From: a virus
Length of the DNA: 21,562 bases
Reading direction: 5' to 3' (one strand)
IMG/VR virus record: IMGVR_UViG_3300017760_000127
Location: 1 to 21,562 of that record
Part shown: positions 1,934 to 20,913 of the stretch, one piece after another
How the letters are laid out: every line of letters begins with the position of its first letter
Position numbering within the stretch: position 1 is the stretch's first letter
Program-made: the position numbers and the translations under genes
The notes under the pieces: model-generated
Databases searched by the model: none
The model's input: only the letters and a program-made list of their open reading frames with translations
What the model was told of the DNA's origin: nothing

Positions 1934-2140
1934 TTACCAGTTGTTATCTATTGATTCGATAACATCTTCCCACTCAGCCATTTTTCTTAACTCTTCAATT
2001 ACCGCTTCGACAATGTCTGAATGCTCTCCAATGCCAGACGGGTTTTGAATGTAAACATCAATGTTTGTTTTATGCACGGCTATTTTGCCCTCGGCGTATT
2101 TTCTTGCAGCACCAAGAACGTCAGGGTGTGTATCACGCAT
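1934..2140 (-). CDS. Conserved phage hypothetical protein
   Basis: This small acidic helical protein contains the segment VYIQNPSGIGEHSDIVEAV, a pattern I remember from uncharacterised proteins of marine phages and cyanophages. No catalytic or metal motif is visible. Two ATGs are possible, at 2146 and 2140. I chose 2140 because the GGGAG Shine-Dalgarno would have a 6-nt spacing there but none for the first ATG. The chosen form is 68 aa. The start overlaps the end of the 244-aa gene by 8 nt, indicating translational coupling. Function unknown. Confidence 0.65.
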   Translation of the reverse strand: MRDTHPDVLGAARKYAEGKIAVHKTNIDVYIQNPSGIGEHSDIVEAVIEELRKMAEWEDVIESIDNNW

Positions 2141-2867
2141 CGTCATCTCCCAAAGTAAGGTTCCCGTATGCTTCTTTAGCAGCTTGCTCTAAATCATCTT
2201 CTGCATAAAGATTATCAAATATTTGATTAACATCAAGTGTATAGTCAAGATCTGATTTTGAATAGTGAATATGCTGGGATGGCAGGAAGTCTGGTGCGCC
2301 TTCACCTGTCTCAAACCAAGCTGGGTGTGTCACCCTTACCCGATTGTTTGGAAGTGCCACTATGTTACCTGTCCATTTGCCTGCATCCAGTAGCTCTAAG
2401 ACGTGGCTTTGTTTGTGCTGTGCTGGATCATCGGCTATCTCGCTATCGGTGTAATCGACAGTGAAATAATATTTTGCCGGATAGAACTCGCCATCAACCT
2501 TTACAAGCCAAGGGCATGGTGTTGCTCTGTTGAGTGTGTAAACAGCGTGGGTGTGTGACATGCAGTCCCAAGGCTGTGCAGCATGCACTGGCATTGGCTC
2601 AGGCCATTCATCAAACGGTGTGTCCCCGACTAACGCAGTTATCGGCATTCTGGCCCACATGGCACCGCCGTGAACATTTGGCTCGTCTTCGTCATCTGTT
2701 TCACAACCTGTGAAAATAACCTGAAAGCTCAGGCACCGATTTGGCATTGTTGTCACAGCAATACACATGGCGTGTAAGAACTCGCCGTGGTAGTTCACAT
2801 GATTGCATGTATATTCACGCCGTACCCAACACTTGAAGTGTGGTATATTACTCTGTAAAAAAGGCAT
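2133..2867 (-). CDS. Conserved hypothetical protein, first gene of leftward operon
   Basis: This 244-aa protein is rich in Trp, His and Cys and has no transmembrane segment. The first half contains CWVRREYTCNHVNYHGE and a Trp/Pro-rich middle. The second half (about 125-195) looks beta-rich, with KYYFTVDYTD and VRVTHPAWFETG. The C-terminus is an acidic helical tail ending in GDDDA. I do not recognise the fold with confidence. The scattered His and Cys could bind metal, but no spacing pattern is diagnostic. The start is supported by GGGAGA 6 nt upstream on the minus strand. As the largest, promoter-proximal gene, it may be the main effector of the cassette (inference). Confidence 0.7.
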   Translation of the reverse strand: MPFLQSNIPHFKCWVRREYTCNHVNYHGEFLHAMCIAVTTMPNRCLSFQVIFTGCETDDEDEPNVHGGAMWARMPITALVGDTPFDEWPEPMPVHAAQPWDCMSHTHAVYTLNRATPCPWLVKVDGEFYPAKYYFTVDYTDSEIADDPAQHKQSHVLELLDAGKWTGNIVALPNNRVRVTHPAWFETGEGAPDFLPSQHIHYSKSDLDYTLDVNQIFDNLYAEDDLEQAAKEAYGNLTLGDDDA

Positions 2868-8061: not shown

Positions 8062-8430
8062 ATGTATTCTGCAAGCAAAGAAGTCAACGAAACAGTTGCA
8101 AATAAAATACCCGTACCCGCTGGGTATAAACTTTTGATTAAACCACTTGAAGTCAAAGAAAAAACAGACTCAGGCATCTATATGCCGGACGCACTGAAGA
8201 ACGCGGAGCAAACCGCATCAGTGATAGGGTTTGTTGTTAAAGCTGGGCCTGACGCATACAAGGACGCAGATAAGTTTCCTAACGGCCCGTATTGTAAAGA
8301 GGGTGACTTTGTCATCTTTCGATCCTATTCCGGCACACGGTTTAAGATTGAAAAGCAAGAGTTCCGTCTTATCAATGATGATACAGTAGAGGCTGTTGTC
8401 GATGACCCAAGAGGATATTCAAGAGTATGA
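8062..8430 (+). CDS. GroES-like co-chaperonin
   Basis: This 122-aa protein has the beta-barrel plan of GroES/Cpn10. It opens VPAGYKLLIKPLEVKEKTDS, followed by a mobile loop (about 32-50) with GIYMP. The tripeptide GIY (38-40) sits where GroES has the hydrophobic residues that grip GroEL. The barrel continues with SVIGFVVKAGPDAY, EGDFVIFRSYSGTRFKI and a final DDTVEAVV strand. It is longer than bacterial GroES (about 97 aa), with about 15 extra N-terminal residues. Its place ahead of scaffold and capsid genes suggests it redirects the host GroEL to fold capsid protein, as phage T4 gp31 does. The fold call is strong; the client is inferred. Confidence 0.9.
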   Translation: MYSASKEVNETVANKIPVPAGYKLLIKPLEVKEKTDSGIYMPDALKNAEQTASVIGFVVKAGPDAYKDADKFPNGPYCKEGDFVIFRSYSGTRFKIEKQEFRLINDDTVEAVVDDPRGYSRV

Positions 8431-15584: not shown

Positions 15585-15845
15585 ATGCCGTTAAAAAAAT
15601 CGCAAAGAAGTTTGAAGTCTTGGACTAAGCAGAAGTGGAGAACCAAGAGTGGAAAGCCGTCCACACAAGGGCCGAAGGCAACGGGAGAAAGATATCTTCC
15701 GGCATCAGCTATTAAAGCCCTCTCGTCTAAGGAATATGCGGCCACCACCCGTGCTAAAAGAAAAGCAACTAAGGCTGGTAAGCAGTTTGCAAAGCAGCCT
15801 AAAACGATACGAGCTAAAGTAAAGCCGCATAGGAAGGTCAAATAA
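15585..15845 (+). CDS. Small basic conserved protein (WTKQKWRTKSGKPS family)
   Basis: This 86-aa protein is rich in Lys. It contains SLKSWTKQKWRTKSGKPSTQ, then GERYLPASAIKALSSKEYAA and TTRAKRKATKAGKQFAKQPK. I remember the WTKQ-WRTKSGK-GERYLP pattern as a widespread small protein family in phages and some giant viruses, of unknown function. The fold seems to be a short alpha/beta core with a basic tail. Spacing to the previous gene is 17 nt with an AGGG Shine-Dalgarno. Its stop overlaps the start of the adaptor gene (TAATG), tying it to the connector genes. Confidence 0.8.
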   Translation: MPLKKSQRSLKSWTKQKWRTKSGKPSTQGPKATGERYLPASAIKALSSKEYAATTRAKRKATKAGKQFAKQPKTIRAKVKPHRKVK

Positions 15846-16525
15846 TGGCTGTTGTAACACCCGACCTACCAGAGATATTTGAAGAGGCGTTTGAAAGAGC
15901 GGGACTCTCTTTACAAACTGGGTATGATCTTAAAACCGCTAGGCGGAGTTTTAACCTTTTAACATTGGAGTGGCAAAATCGTGGACTTAATTTGTGGACT
16001 ATCAATGCTGGGACGCAAGCTCTTACAGCAGGCACAGCAACTTATACGTTACCTACGGGAACGATTGACCTTATTGAGCAACAAATTCGTACAGGTACTG
16101 GCACGAATCAAGTCGATACTGACGTTCAGAGGATTTCGGTTTCTACATACGCTAAAACAAGCAATAAAAACGCTCAAGGCAAGCCTTCGCAGATCTTTGT
16201 GCAGAGACTGGCAACGTCTACAACTTTTACTCTCTGGCCTGTACCAGACAGTGCGGCATCGTATACGCTCGCTTATTACTACCTTCTGGGGATAGATGGG
16301 ATAACTTCCGGCATATCTGGTACAGCCGCTGTACCACCTAGGTTTGTGCCTTGTCTGGTGACAGGATTAGCGTATTATATAGCTATGAAGAAACCAGAAG
16401 TGGCAAATAGGGTTGCCCCCCTAAAGCAGGAATATGAGTTCCAGTTTGAACTGGCAGCAAACGAGGACACTGATTCCTCTGCGTTAAAATTTGTACCATA
16501 CGACACATTTTACCTAGGAGGGTAA
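15845..16525 (+). CDS. Head-to-tail adaptor / tail tubular protein A-like
   Basis: This 226-aa protein is probably a connector ring that docks under the portal. The N-terminal helices are FEEAFERAGLSLQTGYDLKT and ARRSFNLLTLEWQNRGLNLW, followed by a beta segment (TATYTLPTGTIDLIEQQIRT) and GKPSQIFVQR. The C-terminus is a helical bundle, VPPRFVPCLVTGLAYYIAMK. This order matches the T7 gp11 / P22 gp4-type adaptors seen in podoviruses. The protein at 18028-18705 has the same overall plan. The call rests on the motif order and on its place after the head genes. Confidence 0.8.
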   Translation: MAVVTPDLPEIFEEAFERAGLSLQTGYDLKTARRSFNLLTLEWQNRGLNLWTINAGTQALTAGTATYTLPTGTIDLIEQQIRTGTGTNQVDTDVQRISVSTYAKTSNKNAQGKPSQIFVQRLATSTTFTLWPVPDSAASYTLAYYYLLGIDGITSGISGTAAVPPRFVPCLVTGLAYYIAMKKPEVANRVAPLKQEYEFQFELAANEDTDSSALKFVPYDTFYLGG

Positions 16526-16526
16526 T

Positions 16527-17498
16527 ATGCCTATAGTAATTAAAGAATTAGATCCCAAGACAGGAAAGCCAAAGTCAAAAGCAAAGAAAAAGAAGAATCC
16601 ACCACAGGTTGCAAAAGGTGGCGGCATGATGAAGAAAAAGGGCATGCGCCGTGGCGGTATGATGAAGTCAAAAGGTATGGCTGCTGGTGGTAAACTTAAA
16701 ATGGTTGAAAAAGATGGAAAGAAAGTTCCATTCTTTGCTGCTGACGGTAAGGGCAAAATGGCTGCTGGTGGTCGCATGAAGAAAAAGGGCATGAAAAAAG
16801 GTGGCATGATGAAGAAGGGCTACGCCAAAGGCGGGGCTGTAAAGGTTAAGTCAGGCGATACCCTGTCTCAGATTGCCAAGTCAAAAGGTCTTACTCTCAA
16901 GTCTTTGATGGCTGCTAATCCCGGAATCAAAAACGCCAATGAAATTCGCGTTGGACAAAGCATTAAGATGCCAACTGGTGGCGCAAAAACAAGGTCACAA
17001 ATAGCATTTCAAAATGTCGATAAAAATCTAAACAGACGCGATAACGTTTATGCTGGAATGACAAAATCTTCTATGAAGGCACTAGCTGATGATACTGCGG
17101 CTAAAAGATCAAAGAAAGCTGGAACGCCAGTTTCTAAAAAACAGTCTGAAACAGCAAATAAAAGAGCTAGGGTAGGAACTCGCCTCAATCAGCTTGGCGC
17201 AATCAATAAGGAGCGTAGAGCAGCAGATGCCAGTAAAAAGCCGGTAAAAGCAAATAAAATACCGACTGGAAAAACATTAGCAAACACACCTAAGTCAGGT
17301 GCTGCTAAGGTTGCTGAAACTCGTATGGCTAGGTTGGCTAACAAAAACAAATTAGCCCGTAGAGCAGGTGGCGGTGCCATGAAGAAAAAAGGCTATGCTA
17401 TGGGTGGAATGATGAAGAAAAAGGGTATGGCTAAAGGTGGTGTAATGCGCGGTACTGGTGCAGCCACAAAGGGTAAGCGCTTTGGACGCGCAGGCTAG
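16527..17498 (+). CDS. LysM protein with Lys/Gly/Met repeats
   Basis: This 323-aa protein has three parts. Residues 30-104 are short repeats such as GGGMMKKKGMRRGGMMKSKG and MAAGGRMKKKGMKKGG. Residues 105-149 are a LysM domain, VKVKSGDTLSQIAKSKGLTL with LKSLMAANPGIK and IRVGQSIKMP, which normally binds peptidoglycan. The remainder is basic and helical, ending with the same repeat style (RRAGGGAMKKKGYAMGGMMK). It has an ideal AGGAGGG Shine-Dalgarno (16516-16522). LysM in a virion protein suggests cell-wall contact during entry, while the basic repeats may bind DNA or membrane. No lytic enzyme domain is seen. Confidence 0.8.
   Translation: MPIVIKELDPKTGKPKSKAKKKKNPPQVAKGGGMMKKKGMRRGGMMKSKGMAAGGKLKMVEKDGKKVPFFAADGKGKMAAGGRMKKKGMKKGGMMKKGYAKGGAVKVKSGDTLSQIAKSKGLTLKSLMAANPGIKNANEIRVGQSIKMPTGGAKTRSQIAFQNVDKNLNRRDNVYAGMTKSSMKALADDTAAKRSKKAGTPVSKKQSETANKRARVGTRLNQLGAINKERRAADASKKPVKANKIPTGKTLANTPKSGAAKVAETRMARLANKNKLARRAGGGAMKKKGYAMGGMMKKKGMAKGGVMRGTGAATKGKRFGRAG
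16629..17431. repeat. Short intragenic repeats (ATGAAGAAAAAGGGCATG)
   Basis: An 18-bp unit occurs exactly at 16629-16646 and 16776-16793. A one-mismatch copy lies near 17412-17429, and a more diverged copy near 17379. All are in frame within the LysM gene and encode MKKKGM. They lie on both sides of the LysM domain, so the repeat array seems to be interrupted by it. Confidence 0.75.
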
Positions 17499-17501
17499 TA
17501 A

Positions 17502-18023
17502 ATGCCTAACGCGGTAGGAAAACACGCATATGGTGTATGTGATAAAACAGGGTTCAGATATAAGTTATCTGACCTTGTTTTTGAAATAAGAAACGGAACC
17601 AGAACAGGTATGCGTGTTGGAAAAGATGTGGTTGACCATGACCACCCGCAAAACTTCATTGGCAGGGTAAGAACCTCTGATGGTCAGTCACTGCCTAATG
17701 CAAGGCCAAATAGACTAGAGCCTGATGTAATTAATCTTTTGCAAGATAACCCGTTTACGACTGGCGCTTCTGGCGGAGTAACAACAACCATAACGGTGAC
17801 AGAAGTTAATCACGAAAGAGACACGGGAGACACTGTAAGGTTTAGAACTGTCGAGCCGTTTGATGGCATAACTCAGGCGGTGATGGAACTGTCTACTGGG
17901 TATTCTATAACAAAAGTATCAGATGATACTTATACCGTTTCTGTTTCTGGCGGTGCAACAACGGGATCTGTTTCTGGCGGCGGCTTTTTTGCAAGCGCTG
18001 GGCCAGTAACAGCTTTAGGGTAG
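17502..18023 (+). CDS. Virion-associated protein with C-terminal beta domain
   Basis: This 173-aa protein has two parts. The N-terminal half (about 1-85) reads GKHAYGVCDKTGFRYKLSDL and HPQNFIGRVRTSDGQSLPNA, a type I remember from phages next to connector genes. The C-terminal half (about 90-173) is a beta-rich domain: TTITVTEVNHERDTGDTVRF, then YSITKVSDDTYTVSVSGGAT and a Gly-rich end. This second part resembles a small Ig-like or hinge module seen in several phage structural proteins. Spacing to the LysM gene is only 3 nt. A tail or connector accessory role is likely; the exact function is unknown. Confidence 0.65.
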   Translation: MPNAVGKHAYGVCDKTGFRYKLSDLVFEIRNGTRTGMRVGKDVVDHDHPQNFIGRVRTSDGQSLPNARPNRLEPDVINLLQDNPFTTGASGGVTTTITVTEVNHERDTGDTVRFRTVEPFDGITQAVMELSTGYSITKVSDDTYTVSVSGGATTGSVSGGGFFASAGPVTALG

Positions 18024-18027
18024 TAAA

Positions 18028-18705
18028 ATGTCTTTTACATTTGGTGAGCTAAAAACCGCTATTCAATCTTACACTGACAACAGCGAGGCAACTTTTGTTG
18101 CTAATATCTCAAACTTTATAAAAGCAGCAGAACAAAGAATATTCTCTAATGTTGATTTAGAAAACTTTAGAAAGAACGCTACTGGTGTAATGGCTACGGG
18201 TAACCAGTATCTAAAAACCCCTACAGATTTTCTTGCCCCATTTTCCTTATTCATTACAACCTCTGGGAGTGAAGGCTTCCTTTTGGAAAAGGATGTCAAC
18301 TTTATGAGGGAGGCATTTCCTGATGTAACATCAACGGGAAAGCCGCTGTATTATGGTTTCTTTGATTCATCTGTCACATCTGCAAGTGGTCTTGTAAATG
18401 CTAGTTTTATATTAGGGCCAACCCCTAATGCGGATTATACAGTTGAATTACATTATTATTACAGGCCAGCCAGCCTTACAACTTTGGCAGACACAGAGTA
18501 CACATGGCTTAGTCAAAACTCTCCAAACTCTCTTTTGTACGGCTCTTTGATAGAGGCTTACATATTTATGAAGGGTGAACCTGATATAATTTCACTGTAT
18601 GAATCTCGATTTGCAGAAAGTTTATCTAGGTTAAAAGACTTAGCAGAGGCCAGAGAAAACTCGGATGCTTACAGAGAGGGGCTTCCAGAAAGACCGAGGA
18701 CATAG
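18028..18705 (+). CDS. Second adaptor / connector-like protein
   Basis: This 225-aa protein opens MSFTFGELKTAIQSYTDNSE, then FVANISNFIKAAEQRIFSNV, a helical start common to phage adaptor proteins. The middle is beta-rich (YLKTPTDFLAPFSLFITTSG, GKPLYYGFF, then TVELHYYYRPASLTTL). The end is a helical bundle with NSLLYGSLIEAYIFMKGEPD and YESRFAESLSRLKDLAE. Its plan parallels the product of 15845-16525 piece by piece. It probably forms or caps part of the short tail or connector. The TAG of the previous gene is 4 nt before this ATG. The fold call is moderately sure; the exact position in the virion is not known. Confidence 0.78.
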   Translation: MSFTFGELKTAIQSYTDNSEATFVANISNFIKAAEQRIFSNVDLENFRKNATGVMATGNQYLKTPTDFLAPFSLFITTSGSEGFLLEKDVNFMREAFPDVTSTGKPLYYGFFDSSVTSASGLVNASFILGPTPNADYTVELHYYYRPASLTTLADTEYTWLSQNSPNSLLYGSLIEAYIFMKGEPDIISLYESRFAESLSRLKDLAEARENSDAYREGLPERPRT

Positions 18706-20133: not shown

Positions 20134-20913
20134 TTGGCTAATATTACCGGATGGGGTAGAGGCACTTGGGGCCAAGGGACTTGGAGCAGCCCTATCGCTG
20201 TGGAAGTTACTGGTTTTTCTGCCACTGCATCATTGGGTACAGCAGTATCTGACACAGGTATTGTATTCGGTGCTACTGGTGTTTCCGCCTCCGCGTTAAT
20301 AAGCCAGCATGTTGCGACTACAGTAACTTTGGCTGTAACTGTAGTTAATCCCGGATCTGGTAATAAATATTATATAGACGGCGTACAGCAGGCAACACTA
20401 ACACTATACGAAGGAAACACATATAGATTTGATCAGTCTGACAGCAGTAATAGTGGTCACCCATTAAGATTAAGTGAAACATCTAACGGGACTCATGCTG
20501 GTGGATCTGCTTATACTACAGGCGTAACAACAAACGGCACTCCGGGAAGCTCTGGCGCTTATACAGAGATCACGGTAGCGTCAGGCGCTCCGACACTGTA
20601 TTATTATTGTAGTAATCACAGTGCTATGGGAGGCACTGCGAATACACCAGCCATTTTAGGCTTCCACATTGTGCCTACTGGTGTGTCTGGCACAACGGCT
20701 ATTGGCACAGCCACCTCTGCTGCTGCTGGGGCGACAGTTCCCGTCACTGGTGTTACGGCAACAAACTCTATTGGTAGCAGCGTTTTTGTTTCTCCCGTGT
20801 CATTAGGGGTTTCTGTCACAGGTGTGGCGGCTACTGGCAGAGTCGGAGAAGAAATTTTCTGGGAGGTTATAACGCCTTCACAAACACCAAACTGGTTAGA
20901 TATAGCGGCATAA
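20134..20913 (+). CDS. Tail/fibre protein with cupredoxin-like domain
   Basis: This 259-aa protein starts at TTG, with GGAG 6 nt upstream and no ATG nearby. After GWGRGTWGQGTW come repeats of a VTGVxATxxxG type (about 24-55 and 180-235). Between them, residues 65-172 look like a cupredoxin: TYRFDQSDSSNSGHPLRL supplies H109, and YYYCSNHSAMGG supplies C159, H162 and M165. This is the type-1 copper ligand set with amicyanin-like C-x2-H-x2-M spacing. The protein therefore seems to carry a copper-type domain inside a repeat fibre. Similar tail proteins occur in marine phages (memory). Copper binding itself is inferred. Confidence 0.78.
   Translation: MANITGWGRGTWGQGTWSSPIAVEVTGFSATASLGTAVSDTGIVFGATGVSASALISQHVATTVTLAVTVVNPGSGNKYYIDGVQQATLTLYEGNTYRFDQSDSSNSGHPLRLSETSNGTHAGGSAYTTGVTTNGTPGSSGAYTEITVASGAPTLYYYCSNHSAMGGTANTPAILGFHIVPTGVSGTTAIGTATSAAAGATVPVTGVTATNSIGSSVFVSPVSLGVSVTGVAATGRVGEEIFWEVITPSQTPNWLDIAA

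Follow-up and report, generated by a model that had tools for sequence, protein, structure and literature searches.

A predicted cupredoxin module with a full type-1 copper ligand set in marine phage tail proteins

Cupredoxins and metal sites in phage tails

Cupredoxins are a known class of proteins, in which type-1 (blue) copper sites are recognized by the order of their ligands, His...Cys-x(2-4)-His-x(2-4)-Met. An Asn in the second shell, directly after the first His ligand, is common, though not universal, in type-1 copper proteins, and the loop that contains the Cys, His and Met ligands is the face on which partner proteins dock. Metal sites are also already known in phage tail fibres in the form of iron HxH motifs, and metal-binding tail tips with such motifs have been proposed for marine phages (PMC11705849).

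The domain described here, located in a tail gene of a virus, resembles in its predicted fold plastocyanin and azurin (PF00127), amicyanin, rusticyanin and the N-terminal domain of three-domain nitrite reductase. It shares with the small blue-copper proteins the order His...Cys-x2-His-xn-Met and a loop of amicyanin length, but differs from them in being embedded in phage tail proteins without a signal peptide and in having a long mid-domain insert (GTHxGGSxYTTGVTxxGTPG). As in the Ferrojan Horse HxH iron fibres, a metal site, predicted in the present case, lies in an adhesion protein of a marine phage (PMC11705849), but the domain uses H, C, H and M and has a different fold. What appears to be new is the presence, in the tails of phages, of a cupredoxin module that has all the type-1 ligands: its cupredoxin identity is unnamed in Pfam, NCBIfam and PHROGs, and the open-access literature, searched for cupredoxins in connection with phages, tail fibres, cyanophages, SAR86 and virions, yielded no paper on the domain.

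The tail gene and its domain

The window, i.e., the whole stretch of DNA analysed, is a 21.6-kb virus fragment (21,562 nucleotides) with SU10-type portal and adaptor genes. Its terminase and portal are nearest to those of phage 023Pt_psg01, which contains the same domain within its own structural-gene region, and of the pelagiphages HTVC023P and HTVC027P. Several other genes of the window deserve mention: a 244-aa protein at 2133-2867 (-) that matches PHROG 3704 'ferredoxin' (5e-28) and no Pfam family, and is possibly a redox gene; a phage GroES-type co-chaperonin at 8062-8430 (+) (Cpn10, Pfam 2.9e-14); a tail region encoding two distinct SU10-type adaptors (15845-16525 and 18028-18705, +); and a LysM domain in a very Lys/Gly/Met-rich protein with KKKGMKKGG repeats (16527-17498, +).

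The domain-bearing gene lies after the adaptor genes, among tail genes. The features relevant to it are as follows.

17502-18023 (+): 173-aa gene, here without the domain; its homologues in sister phages contain the domain at the C-terminus (alternative docking site)
20134-20913 (+): tail protein gene, 259 aa (ORF and translation), with a TTG start preceded by GGAG
20188-20320 (+): upstream VTG(F/V)SATxxxG repeats (from the translation), breakpoint region of the cassette swap
20326-20652 (+): cupredoxin-like domain, residues ~65-173 (~110 residues)
20458-20460 (+): His109, predicted copper ligand 1, codon cac; followed by Pro110, where Asn is usual
20608-20610 (+): Cys159, predicted copper ligand 2, codon tgt; the nearly invariant Cys of the family
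20617-20619 (+): His162, predicted copper ligand 3, codon cac
20626-20628 (+): Met165, predicted axial copper ligand, codon atg
20653-20850 (+): downstream VTGVxATxxxG repeats (from the translation), breakpoint region of the cassette swap

According to the translation and an alignment of 14 relatives, the protein consists, from the N- to the C-terminus, of a GWGRGTWGQGTW segment, VTGV repeats, the cupredoxin-like domain, further VTGV repeats and a conserved ...TPSQTPNWLDIAA tail. The gene starts with GTG in L001, a close relative. The protein matches PHROG 30742 (tail fibre) with E 2.7e-25, and this similarity, together with the position of the gene, indicates that the product is probably a phage tail or fibre protein. 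Relatives annotated as tail fibres agree with this assignment, which had been proposed in an earlier note on this DNA. The same note had placed a domain at 20326-20650, between VTGVxATxxxG repeats and as if inserted, with a His upstream of a Cys-His-Met loop. The interval given by the family profile is essentially identical (E 8e-63, for a profile that contains the window sequence itself), repeats are found on both sides with the edges of natural swaps inside them, and H109 and C159-x2-H162-x2-M165 were all found when the codons were read, with a His-to-Cys spacing of 50.

Conservation and joint loss of the ligands

Among 72 diverse homologues, the four predicted ligands occupy ranks 1 to 4 of 111 columns by conservation, which rules out a chance occurrence of the four-residue pattern. 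The Met is the only invariant column (72/72), the Cys and both His are each present in 71 of the 72 copies, and the C-x2-H-x2-M spacing is found in every one of the 72 alignment rows. The type-1 order is found in the window sequence and in 71 to 72 of its 72 homologues. The exception is the stand-alone 112-aa copy that follows the tape-measure gene of cyanophage PSS2 (L082, 2492-2830), in which His, Cys and His were lost together. A search bias due to ligand-containing patterns was rejected, as copies retrieved with ligand-free motifs have the full set in 183 of 184 cases, the sole exception being devoid of all four ligands.

Similarly, in 19 phage genomes, each copy with the Cys has all four ligands. 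Degenerate phage copies without the Cys have usually lost the other ligands too (states HATA, DATM, LET- and KDH-), as in the second domain of a 1443-aa protein of P-SSM4. This nearly all-or-none loss is what is predicted for a shared metal site. The full type-1 set claimed in the earlier note was thus borne out by residues that are kept or lost jointly and do not vary freely among homologues. Ligandless copies nevertheless persist in some cyanophages, alongside intact ones, suggesting that the fold can persist without metal. The residue following the first His is Pro in 67 of the 72 homologues, whereas it is Asn in all seven PF00127 controls, and the second shell is therefore unlike that of classical blue sites. 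Overall, the conservation pattern makes it probable that the domain binds copper, or at least a metal.

Predicted fold

A single AlphaFold2 prediction of the domain, built from 44 close homologues, gave an all-beta model with a short helix (pLDDT 93.9, pTM 0.86). When it was compared with solved structures using Foldseek, rusticyanin, the blue-copper domain of a three-domain nitrite reductase, plastocyanin, amicyanin and the purple cupredoxin of Nitrosopumilus ranked high, with modest TM-scores of 0.5-0.6 to solved cupredoxins; a few Ig-like matches were also present. VIA returned Z 8.9 (3.2 Angstrom over 101 residues) for the N-terminal domain of the H. denitrificans nitrite reductase and Z 8.0 for rusticyanin, and the rows listed were cupredoxin-fold proteins. 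The Z values were mostly 7-9, and middling values of this kind are common. The all-beta model and its solved neighbours are consistent with the Greek-key beta-sandwich of 7-8 strands expected of a cupredoxin. The cupredoxin likeness raised in the earlier note thus persisted at the structural level, with mostly cupredoxin neighbours, and the domain of about 110 residues is almost certainly, as modelled, a cupredoxin fold. Modelling of all 259 residues gave a poor result (pLDDT 43), so that the structural claims made here stop short of the flanks.

The domain model also matched three entries of BFVD (A0A481Z6J5, A0A481Z7Q7 and A0A481YVH3; E 2e-6 to 3e-5, TM ~0.64-0.71), all of them small proteins labelled 'beta-sandwich' from giant viruses of pithovirus- and marseillevirus-like type.

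Relationship to copper protein families

No Pfam family was matched by the window copy, PF00127 and PF25489 included. Other members of the family do reach PF00127: L148 (Woeseiaceae) passes its gathering score with 25.4 vs 21.2 bits, and L146 was above the cut-off in a genome search. The family therefore overlaps with PF00127 (plastocyanin/azurin, Copper-bind), with the window copy falling outside it. PF25489 (At5g54830-like) is the best-scoring named Pfam family by E-value; it matches 13 of the 72 members, among which L160 exceeds the cut-off (31.7 vs 27 bits).

The phage family is bridged to PF00127 by L189 (Prochlorococcus, 148 aa) and L217 (Bacteroidetes, 134 aa), two cupredoxins that are secreted, stand alone and share an HPF motif. 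The family profile finds the secreted 148-aa PF00127 protein of Prochlorococcus with E 4e-7, and a profile-profile comparison with both proteins gave E 2.6e-10, with the ligands in register except for a loop difference of two residues before the Met; H109 of the window was aligned with H50 of the Prochlorococcus protein. When the profile was compared with that of seven bona fide PF00127 proteins, the match was moderate (E 4.7e-5, 68%), with the first His misaligned. An alignment based on sequence alone matches three residues, the first His, the Cys and the second His, to ligands of plastocyanin and puts the Met in the following loop; this alignment was taken from weak PDB profile matches (E 0.2) and was not counted as proof. 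A search of the PDB with the single sequence returned antibody noise only.

Distribution in phages and cells

Among 50,697 phage records, at least 363 match the domain, including Synechococcus, Prochlorococcus, Pelagibacter and Methylophilales phages and marine single-virus genomes, and in at least 599 IMG/VR stretches. The carriers comprise tail fibres of both T7 and T4 type, gp9-like connectors between baseplate and fibre, and further virion proteins, some other phages having tandem copies. The domain is contained in PHROG 677 (baseplate wedge tail fibre connector, T4 gp9-like) and PHROGs 30742 and 693 (tail fibre), but these families are defined on whole proteins and give the domain neither a name nor a function. 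An accessory photosynthesis plastocyanin gene was rejected as an explanation, since the domain sits inside structural proteins. It was also observed that 2OG-Fe(II) oxygenase/PiuC genes lie near domain-bearing tail genes (L084, 4634-5227; L226, 1-515; P-SSM2 and MED4-213).

Cellular copies amount to 77 loci, although the matches are partly phage contigs in bins or prophages. They include SAR86 lipoproteins of ~165 aa made of a lipobox and the domain only, marine archaeal lipoproteins with collagen-like repeats, and flavobacterial surface proteins of at least 4,000 residues. The short SAR86 lipoproteins with an LAACGGGG lipobox (L140, L142, L144, L145 and L155) are candidate new marine blue-copper lipoproteins. 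No match was obtained in the plasmid collection searched. The domain is an exchangeable module that marine tailed phages and marine bacteria have in their tail fibres, their baseplate connectors and their surface lipoproteins, respectively.

Cassette exchange and selection

Nearly identical phages exchange the domain segment as a cassette. Upstream of the swap, L001 and L080 are 98-100% identical in DNA over more than 1.6 kb, and the same holds for ~0.8 kb downstream, yet their domains are 33-80% identical from segment to segment, and the swap has its edges within the VTGV repeats. Through the upstream repeats, identity drops from 1.0 to 0.33; it recovers to 0.93-1.0 in the downstream ones. 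Two further swap pairs, L304/L301 and L298/L303, were found at another gene, with less identical flanks. An assembly chimera in L001/L080 is unlikely, given that the two come from different metagenomes and that these less identical pairs exist. L001 and L080 also differ by a second cassette in the next gene downstream, where a segment of ~200 bp is present or absent (4222-4460 of L001). Strong purifying selection acts on the domain: among close relatives, its dN/dS is 0.03, compared with 0.43-0.57 for the flanks.

The alternative docking site was surveyed in 34 well-covered loci, chosen by the neighbouring gene and not by the domain, the upstream gene being the homologue of 17502-18023. The domain was found only in the upstream gene in 13 loci, only in the downstream gene in 12, in both in none and in neither in nine (Fisher p 0.0006 for the one-site-only pattern, ignoring relatedness among the loci). 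This split implies that a phage of this lineage has a single module, placed at either of the two tail sites, or none within the region seen.

Possible functions of the module

It is reasonably likely that the domain is, as a whole, an exchangeable cupredoxin module with an amicyanin-type loop and an upstream His in the tails of marine phages. It would fold as a cupredoxin barrel inside a repeat-rich tail protein, as prediction and homology suggest, and would bind one copper ion, as the conservation and joint loss of the ligands suggest. The copper would probably be loaded after lysis, since the protein is synthesised in the cytosol of the host and lacks a signal for export; cytosolic assembly gives poor access to copper, and zinc at the site is plausible. 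Copper could then lock the Cys-His-Met loop, allowing the module to make contact with the host surface during adsorption. This role in attachment through the ligand-loop face is proposed tentatively. Exchange of the module between nearly identical phages fits a role in specificity, and surface contact is favoured over electron transfer because of the cassette swaps and of the location of the domain in attachment proteins.

The strongest rival is a scaffold in which a metal, possibly cytosolic zinc, purely stabilises the fold, the domain being a generic structural or adhesive beta-sandwich of the tail. Consistent with such a scaffold are the phage copies whose site is destroyed, found next to intact ones, the cytosolic synthesis without a signal peptide and the weak similarity of a few members to CBM_4_9, below the cut-off. 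However, a C-H-H-M set is typical of type-1 copper and not of structural zinc, and the ligands are more conserved than the core; we consider this scaffold rather unlikely. Ligandless copies alongside intact ones count against a redox-active blue-copper centre, by which the tail would pass or take an electron at the host envelope, for example to detect that a membrane active in respiration or photosynthesis has been reached and to set off the following step of infection. The full type-1 set with its amicyanin Cys-His-Met loop points towards such a centre, as do the hosts of many carriers, which are cyanobacteria or oxic marine bacteria with electron-transfer proteins in their envelopes. It remains improbable, since the copies are located in structural repeats, the His-Pro second shell is unlike that of the PF00127 controls and no partner or catalytic neighbour was identified.

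A copper-loaded tip could also mimic a copper carrier and dock on a copper-uptake receptor of the host, in line with the metal-binding tail tips with HxH iron motifs proposed for marine phages (PMC11705849). The retrieved carriers are marine phages and the module is swappable, but no HxH motif is present in the 259-aa protein, a buried type-1 site is not an obvious transport ligand and nothing ties the domain to TonB receptors, making this piggyback quite improbable. Finally, the likeness could be accidental, the domain being a non-cupredoxin Ig-like sandwich with residues conserved for other reasons, as the Ig-like Foldseek matches and the commonness of middling Z values might suggest. Family members nevertheless exceed the Pfam plastocyanin/azurin cut-off, and the ligand columns fall on copper ligands in sequence-only profile alignments. 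An Ig-type disulphide was rejected because the conserved Cys is single. The accidental reading is highly improbable and already close to refuted.

Implications for marine phages

In its most far-reaching form, the proposed surface contact would mean that ocean phages have blue-copper tail tips whose copper site is used in host contact, with cassette exchange tuning host range. Contact may then correspond to docking on redox or copper-handling proteins of the envelope, or to a redox-triggered step. This extended version is speculative and, at present, doubtful. If copper is bound, marine phage particles would constitute a pool of protein-bound copper and the phage would carry a copper centre up to the surface of its host. 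The domain offers a directly testable entry to the recognition of SAR11, picocyanobacteria and other hosts by ocean phages, for which the natural swap pairs and the natural ligand-loss copies are ready-made test material.
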